Part shown: one piece after another, positions 7,276 to 61,526 of the stretch
Layout: every line of letters begins with the position of its first letter
Position numbering within the stretch: the first letter of the stretch is position 1
DNA from: Halomicroarcula saliterrae
GTDB taxonomy: Archaea > Halobacteriota > Halobacteria > Halobacteriales > Haloarculaceae
NCBI RefSeq assembly: GCF_031624395.1
Contig: NZ_JAMQON010000001.1
Coordinates: 1,178,001-1,242,000, forward strand
Direction: 5' to 3'
Length of the DNA: 64,000 nt
Made by a program: the position numbers and the translations under genes
Notes under the pieces: model-generated
Database searches by the model: none
What the model saw: the letters and a program-made list of their open reading frames with translations, nothing else
Told to the model about the DNA's origin: nothing

Positions 7276-7360
7276 CGTCGTGGCTGGGATTCGAACCCAG
7301 GAGGCTGTACGCCACAGAGTTAGCAACCCTGCGCCTTGGGCCAGGCTTGGCTACCACGAC
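7276..7360 (-). tRNA. tRNA-Ser (anticodon GCT)
   Basis: An 85-base type II tRNA. The acceptor GTCGTGG pairs with CCACGAC, with discriminator G as expected for archaeal tRNA-Ser. The anticodon stem is CAGGG/CTCTG with loop TTGCTAA, giving anticodon GCT. A long variable arm and the T arm CTGGG TTCGAAT CCCAG follow. No intron. It heads the S13 operon and is probably processed from the same transcript. Confidence 0.97.
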
Positions 7361-7446
7361 ACACGCTGTCTGATACTCGCGCCCGCGGCACGCGGACTCG
7401 GGAGCCGGTCCCCCTACACGAGTCTGTCAGAACGTATTCCGGGGTT

Positions 7447-7455
7447 GTATTTAAA
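7447..7455 (-). promoter_or_regulatory. TATA box, probably for the tRNA-Ser/S13 operon
   Basis: The minus strand reads TTTAAATAC, a close match to the haloarchaeal TATA consensus. It is about 87 bases upstream of the mature tRNA-Ser 5' end, so transcription would begin in a leader of roughly 60 bases that RNase P removes. The box is nearly symmetrical. It could also serve the plus-strand gene at 7542, though that distance is equally long. Confidence 0.45.
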
Positions 7456-7541
7456 CGCAACGAAGGGCCGCGACCGCGTGACTCGTGCCCGTGTCTCGCC
7501 CTGGCACAACGGTGTAGTGGGCGGGGGCCCAACAGCCGGGT

Positions 7542-7853
7542 ATGGTTCCCGGAGGTATCACCGACGGCGGGACGACCGTGGACCCGACCGACCGAGAGGC
7601 GCTGCGGCGCCACCTCGAACAGTTCGCCGGCGAGGACAGGGTAACCGAGTCGCCCGACGGGACACTCGTCACCGAGTTCAGCCAGTCGACCTACGTCTCG
7701 GTCGACCCCGAGGGTCACGTAGAAGGCGGGATGCCGCTACACCTGTTCGAGGGCCCGGCCGAGACGATCGAATTCGACCACGACAGCGGCGAGATATACG
7801 TCTCGACCGACGACGAGGCCGCCTCGTACACCTTCCGCCGGCCGTCCCGGTAG
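7542..7853 (+). CDS. Conserved haloarchaeal hypothetical protein
   Basis: 103 aa, acidic, with no signal peptide, membrane segment or cysteine. Residues 15-60 suggest a small alpha/beta fold (DREALRRHLEQFAGED, then STYVSVDPEGHVEGGMPLHLF), followed by a short strand-rich tail. I do not recognise a functional family. It stands alone between the S13 operon (divergent) and moaA (convergent). The start could also be a few codons later. Confidence 0.7.
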   Translation: MVPGGITDGGTTVDPTDREALRRHLEQFAGEDRVTESPDGTLVTEFSQSTYVSVDPEGHVEGGMPLHLFEGPAETIEFDHDSGEIYVSTDDEAASYTFRRPSR

Positions 7854-7876
7854 TCCGCCGCCGGCCGGTGTCGGGC

Positions 7877-8917
7877 TCAGTCGTCGTCGGCGGCCATCGG
7901 CTCCGCGACCGGGCCGCTATCGATGTACTCCTCGTTGACGACCCACTCGCCGTCGTCGGTCTGGACCATGTACTCGCCGTAGTAGGGGACCCGGTTTTCG
8001 ACCGTCTCGCGGAACGTCTCGCGGATCTCGGCGCGGGTCATCTCGCCCATCGACCGGAGGTCGTCCGTCCGATTCAGGCACCCCTTCAGCTTCCCGTCGT
8101 GGGTCACGCGCACGCGATGGCAGTTGTCACAGAAGTCAGTGTTCTCGACGGGGTCGACGATTTCGACCATCCCCTCGCCGTCGCCCTCGTCGGCGCTCAC
8201 CCAGTAGCGCTTGCGGTCGTGCATCTCGCGGGTCTCGACGCGGTCGGCCTGCTCGGCCAGCCAGTCGTGGACCCGCCCGATGTCGATGGCCCACTCGGGC
8301 CGCCCGACGAGTTCGGGCATGTACTCGATGAGCTGCAGGCGGAGGCCGTCGTTTTCCGCGACGTGGTCGACCATCTCCGGGACGTACCCCGCCGTCGGCT
8401 CGAAGACGACCATGTTCAGTTTGACCGGGTCCAGCCCGGCGTCGAGTGCGGCCTCGACGCCCTCGATGACCTGCTCGTAGGCCCCGCTCTTGGTTATCTC
8501 GGCGAAGGCCTCCTGGTCGATGGCGTCCTGTGAGACGTTCACCCGGTCGAGCCCCGCGTCGACGAGGTCGGGCGCTCGCCCGGGGAGGAACGTACCGTTG
8601 GTCGTCATCGACACCTCCATGGCGTCGGGCGTCCGGCGGATTATCTCCGCCAGGTCGCCCCGGAGCATCGGCTCGCCGCCGGTGAACTTGACGGCCTCGA
8701 CGTCGAACTCCCGGGCGACCTCCAGAAACCGAACCACGTCGTCGGCCTCCATCTCGTGGTCCTGGGCATCCATCGGGCCGCGCGTGTCCCCCAGCCCCTC
8801 GTTGTGACAGTAGACACAGTCGAAGTTACACCGGTCGGTCAGGGAGACGCGCACCTGCGAGACCTCGCGGCCGTGTCCATCCTCTAACACAGCTGAGGGT
8901 TCACGGTGCAGTAACAT
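7877..8917 (-). CDS. moaA: GTP 3',8-cyclase MoaA (radical SAM, molybdenum cofactor step 1)
   Basis: 346 aa from the ATG at 8917. Seven further upstream codons are open but resemble no homologue. The radical SAM cluster motif is CNFDCVYC near residue 35 and the SAM-binding GGEP follows ([13 protein letters not shown]). The second, C-terminal Fe-S site is [19 protein letters not shown] near residue 280. MoaA rearranges GTP to 3',8-cyclo-dihydro-GTP, the first intermediate of molybdopterin. The characterised bacterial enzymes end in Gly-Gly, which enters the active site, whereas this protein ends in an acidic MAADDD tail. It is divergent from the Mrp gene across 146 bases. Confidence 0.92.
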
Positions 8918-57730: not shown

Positions 57731-58702
57731 ATGGCGACGGTCACGACCGCGGCACGGCTTCACTTTGGCTTCCAGAACCTCTCGCTGGCCCACGAGCGGC
57801 TGTACGGTGGCGTCGGGCTCGCGCTCGCCGAGCCACGGCTCGTCGTCGAGGCCGAGCCGGCCGACTCGCTCGTCTGTGACGACGCGGCGGCCGAACCCTA
57901 CGCCCGTCGCGTGCTGGACGTGCTGGACGTGTCGGGTGCCGAAGTGAGCGTCCGCGACCGGTTCCCGCGCCACGTCGGCCTGGGCAGTGGTACACAGCTC
58001 GCACTGGCGACGCTCATCGCCGTCGCGCGGGCCCACGACCTGACGGCGGACGCGCGGACGGTCGCCCCGCGGCTCGGTCGGGGCGGGCGAAGCGGCGTCG
58101 GCGTCGCGACCTTCGAGCAGGGCGGGTTCGTCGTCGACGGCGGCCACCCCACCGAGCGGTTCACCGCGACGCCGCCCGCGGAGGGCGACTGGGACGTGCC
58201 GCCCGTGGTGGCCAGCCACCACGTCCCCGCCGACTGGCGGTTCGTCCTCGTCGTGCCCGACACCGACCCGGGCCAGAGCGGGAGTGACGAGGACCGGAGC
58301 ATGCGGACGGCTATCGAGCGGGCCGACCCCGGCATCGCCGACCAGATATCGGCGCTGCTGACTCGGCGGCTGCTGCCGGCCATCGCGACGCGGAACCGCC
58401 GGGACTTCGGCGGCGCCGCGGCCCGGCTCGGACGACTGAACGGCGCGTGGTACGCCGACGAGCAGGGCGGTGTCTACAGACCGCCGGCGGGTACCATCGT
58501 GGAGTCACTCGCGGACGCCCCGACTATCACCGGCGCGGGGCAGTCTTCGTGGGGCCCGACGGTGTGGGGACTTACCGACACGGAGGGGATGGACGAGGCG
58601 AAGGACGCCGGCTATCGGGCGCTGGAGGCGGCCGGTGTCGGCGGCGAGGTCCACGTGGCCGCCCCGCGCAACACCGGGGCGTCGCTGGTCGATGACGGGT
58701 GA
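57731..58702 (+). CDS. Beta-RFAP synthase homologue (GHMP family)
   Basis: 323 aa from the ATG at 57731 (MATVTTAARLHFGFQNLSL). RLHFGFQNLS near the N-terminus and the glycine-rich PRHVGLGSGTQLALATLIAVA loop are the signatures of beta-ribofuranosylaminobenzene 5'-phosphate synthase (MptG), the first committed step of methanopterin synthesis. PRLGRGGRSGVGVATFEQGGFVVDGGH and GAGQSSWGPTVWGL are also present. Haloarchaea are generally thought to use folate-type C1 carriers, so the actual product is uncertain. Confidence 0.88.
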   Translation: MATVTTAARLHFGFQNLSLAHERLYGGVGLALAEPRLVVEAEPADSLVCDDAAAEPYARRVLDVLDVSGAEVSVRDRFPRHVGLGSGTQLALATLIAVARAHDLTADARTVAPRLGRGGRSGVGVATFEQGGFVVDGGHPTERFTATPPAEGDWDVPPVVASHHVPADWRFVLVVPDTDPGQSGSDEDRSMRTAIERADPGIADQISALLTRRLLPAIATRNRRDFGGAAARLGRLNGAWYADEQGGVYRPPAGTIVESLADAPTITGAGQSSWGPTVWGLTDTEGMDEAKDAGYRALEAAGVGGEVHVAAPRNTGASLVDDG

Positions 58703-58772: not shown

Positions 58773-59609
58773 ATGGATCGCATCCCCTTCGGTGTCAAGC
58801 AGCTCGACTCCATCATCAACGGGGGAGCGCCGACCGGGAGCGTCGTCCTCCTCTCCGGGCAGGCCGGGGCGGGCTCGCGGGAGTTCATGCACACCAGCGC
58901 GGTCATCAACGGGATGGCCGAGGAAGACCCGGAGCTGTTCGACCTCTACTACGGGGAGCCCTCGGACCGGACCACCCTCCCGGAAGAAGTCCACTATCTC
59001 TCCTTTACCGCCAGCGAGGGACAGCTGGCCGACGAGATGCGGCTGGCGATGGACGACGAGGTGCTGGACGCCGGGCTGACCGGCATCGAGTTCCACGACA
59101 TGTCCGAGCGGTACTTCCACATGAGCCCGGTGCCCCGGGAGTGGTACGCCGACCAGACGCCGACGATCAAGGACCTGCGCGCGCGCCACGAGCGGGACGA
59201 CCTGCTGAGTGCCCTGGGCACGAAACTCAGCAACATCTCGGCGAACAACCTCGTCGTCATCGACTCGCTGTCCGACCTCGTGGCCGCGATGGGCGAGGAC
59301 ATCGACTGGGCCGACATCACCTTCCTGGTCTCGGGCATCCAGAAGGCGGCCCACCAGTGGGGCGGGCTCATCCTCCTGCATCTCAACCACGAGACGCTCT
59401 CTCCCACCCGGGCCGGACAGCTCAGCGAAGCAGCCCACGGTACCATGGAGTTCTCCTGGGAATCGGGCGGGTCGACGCGGGCCCGGACGCTCGTCGTCAA
59501 GCAGTTCCGCGGCGTCCTCTCCCAGATCGAAGACGAGAACATCGTCCAGTTCGAGACCGAACTCGGCGACGCCGGCTTCGATATCAGCGACGTCCGAAAG
59601 ATACGCTGA
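58773..59609 (+). CDS. RecA/KaiC-superfamily protein (HTR-like) with a degenerate P-loop
   Basis: 278 aa, leaderless by TATA position (CGTTTAAG near 58741). FGVKQLDSIINGGAPTGSVVLLSGQAGAGSREFMHTSAVI shows the KaiC/RAD55 start, but the Walker A Lys-Ser/Thr is replaced: GQAGAGSRE instead of GxxGxGKS/T. Walker B-like NLVVIDSLSDLVAAM is preserved, followed by HLNHETLSPTRAGQLSEAAHG and ARTLVVKQFRGVLS. It may not hydrolyse ATP. These HTR-like proteins are widespread in haloarchaea. Confidence 0.87.
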   Translation: MDRIPFGVKQLDSIINGGAPTGSVVLLSGQAGAGSREFMHTSAVINGMAEEDPELFDLYYGEPSDRTTLPEEVHYLSFTASEGQLADEMRLAMDDEVLDAGLTGIEFHDMSERYFHMSPVPREWYADQTPTIKDLRARHERDDLLSALGTKLSNISANNLVVIDSLSDLVAAMGEDIDWADITFLVSGIQKAAHQWGGLILLHLNHETLSPTRAGQLSEAAHGTMEFSWESGGSTRARTLVVKQFRGVLSQIEDENIVQFETELGDAGFDISDVRKIR

Positions 59610-59678
59610 CAGGTCCCAGTCTCGGCTGCTGAAATTGGCGGCAAACCCTTAACTATCTGGTTACACGAGGGAGACGTA

Positions 59679-60578
59679 ATGGCCAGTGAGTCGACCGACG
59701 AGGGGGTGGTCTCGGTCGAGCTCCCGCCGGGGCTCGACGAGTGGCTGGACGACCGCGCCGGGGAGCTCGACGAACCCCGCGAGGAGATCGTCCGACAGCT
59801 GCTGGCGTCGTACCGGTCGACCACTGACGGGACCGAAAACGACCTGGCGACGGCGCTGGATATCGAGAGCCGCGTCGAAGACGCGATGCGGGACGAACTC
59901 GACGCCGCCGTCGCCAGCGCCGTCGAAAAGGAGGTCACGGAACGCCTCGACTCGACTGTCAGGGACCGGTTGCCCGACATCACGGACGCCGTCGAATCGC
60001 GCGTCGACGGGCGGCTAAACGGCGTCGAGGACGAGTTTCAGGGGAAGTTGACCGACGTTCGCGAGCGCGTCGTCCAGCTAAAGCGGGAGCTGGACGCCAA
60101 AGCGCCCGCCGACCACGAGGCCTTCGAGACCGTCGCCGAACTGGACGACAGCGTCGCCGAGCTGAACCGCGAACTGGTCGAGGTCCGCGACGAGTTCGAG
60201 GGCGATATCGCCGACCAGTCTGGCCGAATCGACGCGCTCGAAGCGCGGGCCGACGAGTTCGAGGACCGCCTCGCCGACACCGAGGAGAAGCTCAAACGGG
60301 TCGCCTGGGTCGTCAGCGACCTGCGGGACAGTCAGGGCGGGCGCGACGCCCACCAGAAGGCCGTCGACCGCATCAAGCGCGCCGCCGCACAGGAGGGCAT
60401 CTCCTCGGCGTCGTGCCAGAGCTGCGGCGAGAAGGTCGAAATAGCCCTGCTGACGGACCCCCAGTGTCCCCACTGCAACTCGACGGTCTCGGACGTACAG
60501 CCCGAGGGCGGTATCATCCGCAAGAAGGCGTCGCTCGTCACCGCCGCCCAGCTGGAGGCGGGCCCGACCGATGAGTGA
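59679..60578 (+). CDS. RHH-like, coiled-coil protein with a C-terminal zinc ribbon
   Basis: 299 aa. Residues 8-45 look like a ribbon-helix-helix (VVSVELPPGLDEWLDDRAGEL). Residues 55-240 are a long acidic coiled coil (heptads of Asp/Glu/Leu/Val). A CQSCG...CPHC zinc ribbon follows at about residues 253-275 and GGIIRKKASLVTAAQLE closes the protein. The layout suggests a dimeric scaffold or DNA-binding factor. It overlaps the next gene by eight bases. Confidence 0.75.
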   Translation: MASESTDEGVVSVELPPGLDEWLDDRAGELDEPREEIVRQLLASYRSTTDGTENDLATALDIESRVEDAMRDELDAAVASAVEKEVTERLDSTVRDRLPDITDAVESRVDGRLNGVEDEFQGKLTDVRERVVQLKRELDAKAPADHEAFETVAELDDSVAELNRELVEVRDEFEGDIADQSGRIDALEARADEFEDRLADTEEKLKRVAWVVSDLRDSQGGRDAHQKAVDRIKRAAAQEGISSASCQSCGEKVEIALLTDPQCPHCNSTVSDVQPEGGIIRKKASLVTAAQLEAGPTDE

Positions 60579-61170
60579 GGACGAGGCGGACCCCTTCGAG
60601 GCGTTCGACGACGAAGACCGCGAGGGCGACCCCTTCGAGCGACTCGACGACGCGGGCCCCGAGGACGTGGCCGACGATGCGCCGGCGGCGCGTGACGATG
60701 GGCCTAGCACGCCCGACGGCGCGGAACCGGCTACGAGCGACAACGAACCGGAGTTCGAGGAGGCGTTCATCGACGAGGACGACCCCTTCGCGACGGACGA
60801 GGGCCCGGCGACCGAGGGTGCGAGCACCGCCGGCGACGACGACCCCTTCGCCGGGATGGACGCCCGAGAGGGGGACCCGTTCGCGACGGACGAGAGCGTC
60901 TTCGAGGCGGTCGACATCGACAGGGTGGACCCCGACGAGGTGTGGGCATCGCTCGACAGCGACGAGGACGGCGGGACGTTCGAGGGCAGTCGCTACGTCG
61001 AGGTGTCGAAACACCGCTTTTGCGAGCAGTGCGAGCACTTCTCCAGCCCACCGGCGGCCCGCTGTACCAACGAGGACGCCGAGATAATCGAGTTCCTCGA
61101 TATGGAGACGGTGCGGCTGCTGAACTGTCCCGTCGTCGCCGAGCAGCGCGAACTGGAGAGCGAGGGGTAA
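60571..61170 (+). CDS. Acidic DPF-repeat protein with a C-terminal zinc motif
   Basis: 199 aa. Five DPF motifs occur in a low-complexity acidic N-terminal 110 residues (DPFEAFDDED, DPFERLDDAG, DPFATDEGPA, DPFAGMDARE and DPFATDESVF). The C-terminal 70 residues carry four cysteines (FCEQCEHFSSPPAARC, then LLNCPVVAEQ) in a fold with a hydrophobic core (EDAEIIEFLDMETVRLL). Coupled to the coiled-coil protein by an overlap of start and stop. Function unknown. Confidence 0.75.
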   Translation: MSEDEADPFEAFDDEDREGDPFERLDDAGPEDVADDAPAARDDGPSTPDGAEPATSDNEPEFEEAFIDEDDPFATDEGPATEGASTAGDDDPFAGMDAREGDPFATDESVFEAVDIDRVDPDEVWASLDSDEDGGTFEGSRYVEVSKHRFCEQCEHFSSPPAARCTNEDAEIIEFLDMETVRLLNCPVVAEQRELESEG

Positions 61171-61202: not shown

Positions 61203-61526
61203 ATGCAGTTCTGTGACGCCTGTGGCTCCATGATGCACGCCGACGGCGACGAGATGGTCTGTCAGTCCTGTGGCGAGAGCGTCGAGAAGGACACCGACCG
61301 CGCCGCCGAGTTCGTCAGCACCGCCGAACAGACCGACGACGACGTCATCGAGACCGAAGAGGGGGCCGATTTCGAGGGCAAGCCCACCGCGAACGACGTC
61401 CGTTGTGACGACTGTGGCCACACCAAAGCGTGGTACACCATCAAACAGACCGGCTCGGCCGACGAGCCGCCGACGCGCTTTTTCAAGTGCCAGGAGTGTG
61501 GCCACCGCTGGCGCGAGTACAACTGA
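61203..61526 (+). CDS. tfs: Transcription factor S (TFS, TFIIS-like)
   Basis: 107 aa from the ATG at 61203. Two zinc ribbons: CDACG...CQSCG near the N-terminus, and CDDCG...CQECG at the end. The catalytic acidic pair is in QTGSADEPPTRFFKC (the family's RSADEPMTxF position). It triggers RNA cleavage in paused RNA polymerase. TATA-like CACTTTTG about 27 bases upstream. Confidence 0.95.
   Translation: MQFCDACGSMMHADGDEMVCQSCGESVEKDTDRAAEFVSTAEQTDDDVIETEEGADFEGKPTANDVRCDDCGHTKAWYTIKQTGSADEPPTRFFKCQECGHRWREYN

Follow-up and report, generated by a model that had tools for sequence, protein, structure and literature searches.

A KaiC-fold protein without a Walker A lysine and its link to the PilB3/PilC3 adhesion pilus in haloarchaea

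The genome of Halomicroarcula saliterrae carries three adjacent, uncharacterized genes, here termed P0001, P0002 and P0003, the first of which encodes a RecA-like protein with a degenerate P-loop. What does such a protein do beside its two companions? A first-pass annotation had offered a signalling or chromosome-linked complex as one reading. Our comparative analysis of the window, by which we mean the whole 64,000 nt stretch examined (contig NZ_JAMQON010000001.1, positions 1,178,001 to 1,242,000; Table 1), suggests that the three proteins help to build or control the PilB3 pilus. The link between P0001 and the PilB3/PilC3 type IV (adhesion) pilus is well supported, because two independent lines of evidence lead to it: gene neighbourhood outside Halobacteria and joint loss within the class. 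This provides a concrete functional hypothesis for three gene families that are present in most of the haloarchaea sampled.

Table 1. Features of the window and related genes in other loci and genomes
Feature	Location	Strand	Remarks
GHMP-fold gene, beta-RFAP synthase family	57731..58702	+	TIGR00144 164.6 bits, cut-off 113.5
P0001, KaiC/ArlH-fold protein, 278 aa	58773..59609	+	ATG start, intact ORF
Degenerate P-loop GQAGAGSREF of P0001, residues 29-38	58857..58886	+	
P0002, 299 aa: probable RHH N-terminus, coiled-coil hairpin, zinc-ribbon-like CxxC..CxxC C-terminus	59679..60578	+	
P0003, 199 aa, acidic, five DPF motifs and four-Cys C-terminal domain	60571..61170	+	
Transcription factor S (TFS)	61203..61526	+	TIGR01384 73.4 bits, cut-off 64.75
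Divergent P0001-like gene	L246 7945-8886	-	
Divergent P0001-like gene	L247 7830-8864	+	
Divergent P0001-like gene	L248 7720-8622	+	
P0001 and P0002 of L113 (G093)	1318-2151, 7302-8543		
Degenerate KaiC-like gene (cluster 12)	L173 7050-7634		
PilB-like fragments	G216:C5:351155-351792		
TIGR03880 gene of the window genome	G000:C2:371731-372402		
TIGR03880 gene with long acidic extension	L249 8232-9377	-	

The three proteins of the locus

All three ORFs are intact and start with ATG, and P0001 shares 93% identity with its counterpart in Haloarcula rara. The reading frames of P0002 and P0003 overlap, as had been noted at the outset, and the overlap is 8 nt long. The strong acidity remarked on in the first-pass annotation is real (pI 4.5, 4.3 and 4.05 for P0001, P0002 and P0003), but is ordinary for this neighbourhood, where the flanking proteins have pI values of 4.2-5.0; among the six proteins, P0003 has the lowest value.

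P0001 was recognized by the Pfam KaiC profile (PF06745) at 30.9 bits, above the cut-off of 26.6. Its AF2 model (pLDDT 85, with a single low-confidence loop at residues 120-139) matched KaiC (8dba, Z 22.6) and ArlH (4wia and 4yds, Z 21.4 and 21.2) in a comparison with structures (VIA). The RecA-like fold is therefore kept, and the P-loop reads GQAGAGSREF in place of GxxGxGK[ST], both as first described; residues 160-169 form a Walker-B-like LVVIDSLSDL. Lysine was missing from all 84 haloarchaeal orthologues, which have alanine (62), serine (19) or glycine (3) at this position, followed by arginine in 83 and glutamine in one. Absence across 84 of 84 orthologues marks a family trait and not a chance loss. 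The KaiC-type glutamate pair after strand 2 was likewise not found, none of the 84 sequences having EE (residues 79-80 are TA, TD, TS and the like). By its fold, P0001 is a degenerate member of the KaiC superfamily and not an ordinary KaiC-like ATPase. The first-pass annotation had suggested that P0001 may bind nucleotides without hydrolysing them; with both the lysine and the glutamate pair absent, even ordinary Mg-ATP binding is doubtful. At its C-terminal end the protein has a conserved FRGVL/VRKIR surface.

Two variations on the family were observed. Three genomes (G016, G041 and G156) encode a further P0001-like family that is more divergent and whose P-loop is degenerate in another way (GA-DAG); the last of the three has neither P0001 nor PilB3. 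In the P0001 orthologues of G066 and G232 (L194, L195 and L198), an insert splits the profile match and the ORF is ~360 aa long.

The predicted structure of P0002 comprises RHH-like helices, a coiled-coil hairpin and a C-terminal zinc-ribbon-like segment, at a pTM of only 0.36, as is seen for long coils. The hairpin bears an invariant D-R-R motif region (DVRERVVQLKRELDAKAPADH), and four cysteines are invariant. The coiled coil and the zinc-ribbon-like end of the original description thus stand, on the model and the invariant cysteines, whereas the RHH N-terminus is only probable. RHH_1 (PF01402) scored the window protein at E 0.021 (15.2 bits, under the cut-off of 20.5) and reached E 0.01 or better in 6 of 53 family members (lowest value 3e-5). 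A PDB profile search gave the antitoxin EndoAI at E 0.026, and Foldseek with the P0002 model had no match at or below E 0.001, with CopG, Arc and CdbA all at E above 1. The zinc ribbon resembles RNA polymerase subunit P below threshold (E 0.017; E 0.51 in a second search). When P0002 and P0003 were compared with PDB profiles, the matches were only of coiled-coil type or below threshold.

The DPF motifs of P0003 lie at residues 7, 20, 71, 91 and 102, and five were reached in none of 20,000 shuffles of the N-terminal part. The 'DPF protein' of the first-pass annotation is named after a lineage-specific feature: we rejected the repeat as a family signature, as 43 of 83 orthologues have none. Conserved among the orthologues are the C-terminal domain with its four cysteines (C151, C154, C165 and C186) and an F..vD.d.vW segment.

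Gene neighbourhood inside and outside Halobacteria

Gene order was compared in 93 haloarchaeal loci, namely 12 from a first search, 80 further loci and the window. This is not a random set, as 20 loci were picked through P0002 matches, some were chosen for an unlinked P0001 and six genomes appear twice; the all-against-all ORF comparison used a length and charge filter. Within this set P0001 was found in 84 loci, P0002 in 82 and P0003 in 83. P0001 and P0002 lie within 300 nt of each other in 71 of the 73 loci that have both, and in 59 of 82 the frames of P0002 and P0003 share 4 or 8 nt. The linkage, whose lack the first-pass annotation had named as a refutation, is thus conserved across haloarchaeal loci. 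A complex of P0001, P0002 and P0003 is plausible. In one locus (L113) P0001 and P0002 are ~5 kb apart, an arrangement intermediate between linked and split.

In 69 of 83 loci TFS lies no more than 800 nt downstream of P0003, and in 59 of 84 the GHMP gene is found at most 800 nt upstream of P0001. The window copy of the latter scored 174 bits against the beta-RFAP synthase family BetaRFA-P_synth, below the cut-off of 328; it is the usual upstream neighbour of P0001 and probably lies outside the pilus module. The haloarchaeal operon has the GHMP gene and TFS as neighbours and contains no pilus gene, which speaks against a role in the pilus. Linkage to pilB or pilC was not seen in the haloarchaeal loci whose ORFs were compared all against all.

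The picture outside the class is different. When 246 genomes from the phylum were searched with a P0001 profile, 73 of the 203 that lie outside Halobacteria gave matches at E < 1e-20. We inspected 37 non-halobacterial loci, having left out L178, L179 and L188 (Halobacteria, or ArlH). The lysine position could be aligned in 36 of these and held lysine in none; four proteins (L165, L169, L172 and L175) have a lysine one residue later. In 36 of the 37 loci the gene directly downstream of P0001 is also KaiC-like, L173 being scored as lacking this partner on account of an ORF overlap beyond the limit set. Genes for a T2SSE ATPase and for a platform protein of the T2SSF type, the PilB/PilC pair, lie nearby in 22 of 37 loci; the remaining 15 have no PilB/PilC within the stretch examined, which counts against the pilus. 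Examples typed with Pfam were one ATPase (PF00437, with weak similarity to PilB3), one platform protein (PF00482) and one neighbouring archaeal pilin. In seven loci, including L173, a degenerate KaiC-like gene (cluster 12, with DUF7504/DUF835 similarity) lies just 5' of P0001 and perhaps encodes a third subunit.

No relatives of P0002 or P0003 were found in the non-halobacterial loci. Two genomes (G021 and G218) have P0001 adjacent to its TIGR03880 partner, with no P0002 or P0003 detected, and therefore P0002 and P0003 were perhaps added to the pair later; these data suggest a gain within Halobacteria. P0002 was not found in G021, G218, G222 and G237, a point against the pilus explanation.

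Co-occurrence with PilB3 and the KaiC-like partner

We searched 242 Halobacteria genomes for P0001, ArlH, P0002, P0003, PilB3_N and TIGR03880. Genomes with a P0001 match at E < 1e-50, together with G066 and G232, whose orthologues are divergent, were scored as positive (198, leaving 44 negative). In raw genome counts, which ignore kinship and treat a genome without a listed match as negative, strong PilB3_N matches were present in 197 of 198 P0001-positive and 4 of 44 P0001-negative genomes, and TIGR03880 in 195 of 198 and 1 of 44. A full-length PilB3 search of 58 genomes found true PilB3 (584-893 bits, 62-74% identity) in 13 of the 14 P0001-positive genomes included and in one of the 44 P0001-negative ones. 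PilB3_N matches at 2e-6 to 1e-5, in 11 genomes, were treated as paralogues, and the full-length search found true PilB3 in none of these. P0002 was detected at E up to 0.001 in 199 genomes, some of them through weak coiled-coil matches, and P0003 at the same limit in 184 of 242. ArlH tracked P0001 far less closely: it was present in 170 of 196 P0001-positive genomes and in 21 of the 46 scored as lacking P0001, where the corresponding numbers for PilB3_N were 195 and 6; membership of P0001 in the archaellum was rejected on these grounds.

Both P0001 states occur within each of five genera (g16, g19, g37, g52 and g53), in which P0001, TIGR03880 and PilB3 change jointly. The exceptions, all in g16, are G144, where P0001 is present without PilB3 and without TIGR03880, and G004, G034 and G092, which lack P0001 yet have a PilB homologue of 48-49% identity (~510 bits). 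These four genomes speak against the pilus link, as do G066 and G232, which have P0001 and PilB3 and no TIGR03880. The sole P0001-negative genome with true PilB3, G121, has TIGR03880, and its P0003 runs into a contig end; the GHMP gene is missing there too, and an assembly gap at the P0001 module is the probable cause of all this. The other 43 of the 44 negative genomes retain the GHMP gene, and therefore the region itself has not been lost. P0001-negative G216 contains PilB-like fragments of 56-57% identity, one of them interrupted by two stop codons, which may be remnants of a pilus ATPase gene in decay.

The second KaiC-like protein was assigned to TIGR03880 (KaiC_arch_3) through the partner at L150, the one tested against NCBIfam (335 bits, cut-off 249). 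Its P-loop (GxxxxGK[ST]) is intact in 32 of 36 non-halobacterial partner genes; in the other four (L167, L168, L182 and L183) arginine replaces the Walker lysine (GTGRT for GTGKT), so the pair is not always dead-plus-live. In a phylogenetic tree, P0001 (32 rows, 99/99), the partner family (19, 100/96) and ArlH (5, 100/99) each formed one group. A sister relationship of P0001 and ArlH in that tree was set aside, because long branches meet there and the deeper order is not trusted.

In most Halobacteria TIGR03880 is unlinked from P0001, and in the window genome it lies on another contig, where it adjoins a NAD kinase gene. The published flanks of Haloferax cirB are ATP-NAD kinase and NADH oxidase (PMC3941300). 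Both cirB primers fell inside TIGR03880 in three of eight loci tested (G113, G142 and G030), spaced 483 nt apart with 2-4 mismatches each; the pair was not found in the remaining five. CirB of Haloferax is thus probably TIGR03880, to judge from primer placement and flanks.

The TIGR03880 protein of the window genome has an acidic N-terminal extension with DPF, NPF and SPF repeats resembling those of P0003. The TIGR03880 proteins sampled from haloarchaea have a D-WFE motif at their start and carry long acidic repeat-rich extensions that vary by lineage (for example in L249). Counts of xPF motifs in P0003 and in the TIGR03880 N-terminus were correlated across 25 genomes (Spearman 0.62, p 9e-4), a comparison that dropped 6 of 31 genomes whose KaiC gene was missed by the motif filter (G199, G178, G161, G182, G009 and G003). 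Strict DPF counts showed no correlation (0.16), and both features are concentrated in one family; the shared xPF motifs are therefore suggestive only.

Function of the module and comparison with known systems

We consider it reasonably probable that P0001 is the dead half of a KaiC-like pair serving the PilB3/PilC3 pilus, with TIGR03880 as the live half and P0002 and P0003 as adaptors. P0001 would be a putative non-hydrolysing scaffold, and dead P0001 and live TIGR03880 subunits may form a mixed ring or stack. By analogy with ArlH on ArlI, such a ring could dock on the PilB3 hexamer at its cytoplasmic face, where the KaiC assembly might gate the assembly of the pilus. P0002 and P0003 would be halophile-specific adaptors that connect the KaiC unit with PilB3 or with a signalling input.

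The main rival is that the module is regulatory and not structural, which we hold to be unlikely. P0001 and TIGR03880 would then sense the state of the cell, P0002 (through its RHH) and P0003 would form a DNA- or RNA-polymerase-facing output on pilus genes, and co-occurrence with PilB3 would mark a dedicated regulator. The probable RHH end of P0002, the sub-threshold resemblance of its zinc ribbon to RNA polymerase subunit P and the linkage to TFS are consistent with such an output, as are the published proposal that KaiC-like ATPases regulate archaeal type IV pili (PMC4858521) and the effect of CirA on archaellum gene expression (PMC12240190, PMC13286277). However, the RHH matches are weak, the TFS linkage may be chance operon history, and outside Halobacteria the KaiC pair has PilB/PilC as neighbours but neither P0002 nor P0003, so that such outputs were not needed for the ancestral role.

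A quite improbable alternative is that the module has another function, for instance in GHMP-related metabolism or in transcription with TFS, and co-occurs with PilB3 through common ancestry or life style. The operon neighbours that are not pilus genes fit this idea, as does the concentration of 27 of the 44 P0001-negative genomes in one family (f3); the retention of the GHMP gene in 43 genomes without the module, the five genera that contain both states, and the agreement of the outside neighbourhood and the inside co-loss on the same partner all argue against it. The chromosome-associated complex of the first-pass annotation gained no support and is very improbable: P0002 has a coiled coil, a probable RHH and, in profile comparison, weak similarity to coiled coils related to SMC (best E 6.5e-6, at 25 bits with a cut-off of 300), but we rejected this reading because that resemblance is of a type common to coiled coils and lies far under cut-offs, complete genomes without PilB3 also lack the module, and co-loss and ancestral neighbourhood point to the PilB3/PilC3 pilus.

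The reading of P0001 and TIGR03880 as a KaiC pair on the pilus can be extended, to a combined form that we regard as rather doubtful when taken whole: an ArlH-like stage on PilB3, CirB as pilus machinery, a unit rebuilt with P0002 and P0003, and docking through xPF motifs. A mixed dead and live KaiC assembly would sit on PilB3 in archaeal adhesion pili, with ArlH as its archaellum counterpart, and CirB, one member of the 'circadian' Cir set of Haloferax, would be pilus machinery. P0003 and CirB could dock on a common partner by way of their shared xPF linear motifs. The main reading already makes CirB a candidate for a non-clock role, and Haloferax volcanii delta-pilB3 and delta-cirB strains have already been published.

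The association of KaiC with pili in Methanomicrobia is already published: Makarova 2016 described KaiC-like genes (arCOG01172 and arCOG01173) beside VirB11/TadC operons (PMC4858521), probably the same genes as the non-halobacterial P0001-partner pair. That paper, which also proposes a MinD-type ATPase as a FlaH-like partner and states that PilA pili require the PilB3 locus, makes no mention in its accessible portion of the loss of the lysine, the P0002/P0003 operon or the co-loss with PilB3. We found no description of the haloarchaeal P0001-P0003 module or of its tie to PilB3 in a literature search that left subscription papers mostly outside. The accessible part of a Haloferax adhesion transposon screen (PMC5198076), matched without H. 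volcanii locus tags, held no gene recognizable as P0001, P0002 or P0003.

Among known systems, inactivated KaiC domains (iKaiC) are a described class (PMC5847659) and resemble P0001 as KaiC-superfamily domains judged inactivated; those treated in the accessible portion of that study are fused to REC or HalOD1. TIGR03880 belongs to the KaiC family like P0001, is its neighbour outside Halobacteria and co-occurs with it inside the class, but usually has an intact P-loop and forms a separate clade. ArlH/FlaH of the archaellum (NF052589; 4wia and 4yds, Z 21.4 and 21.2) shares the KaiC-like fold and is the best NCBIfam match of P0001, at 45.7 bits and far under the cut-off of 215. KaiC-like ArlH binds the motor ATPase ArlI, and its oligomeric state and phosphorylation have been proposed as a motor switch (PMC8978795). 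It is listed among the gains that separate archaella from pili, recruited 'from an unknown source' (PMC9087265). With a KaiC-like pair linked to an adhesion pilus that is non-rotary, the question of its origin becomes testable in a tractable organism. Both proteins are associated with a filament motor ATPase, ArlH by experiment and P0001 by genomic evidence. ArlH keeps the Walker lysine that P0001 lacks; the two form separate clades, and P0001 is tied to PilB3 and not to the archaellum.
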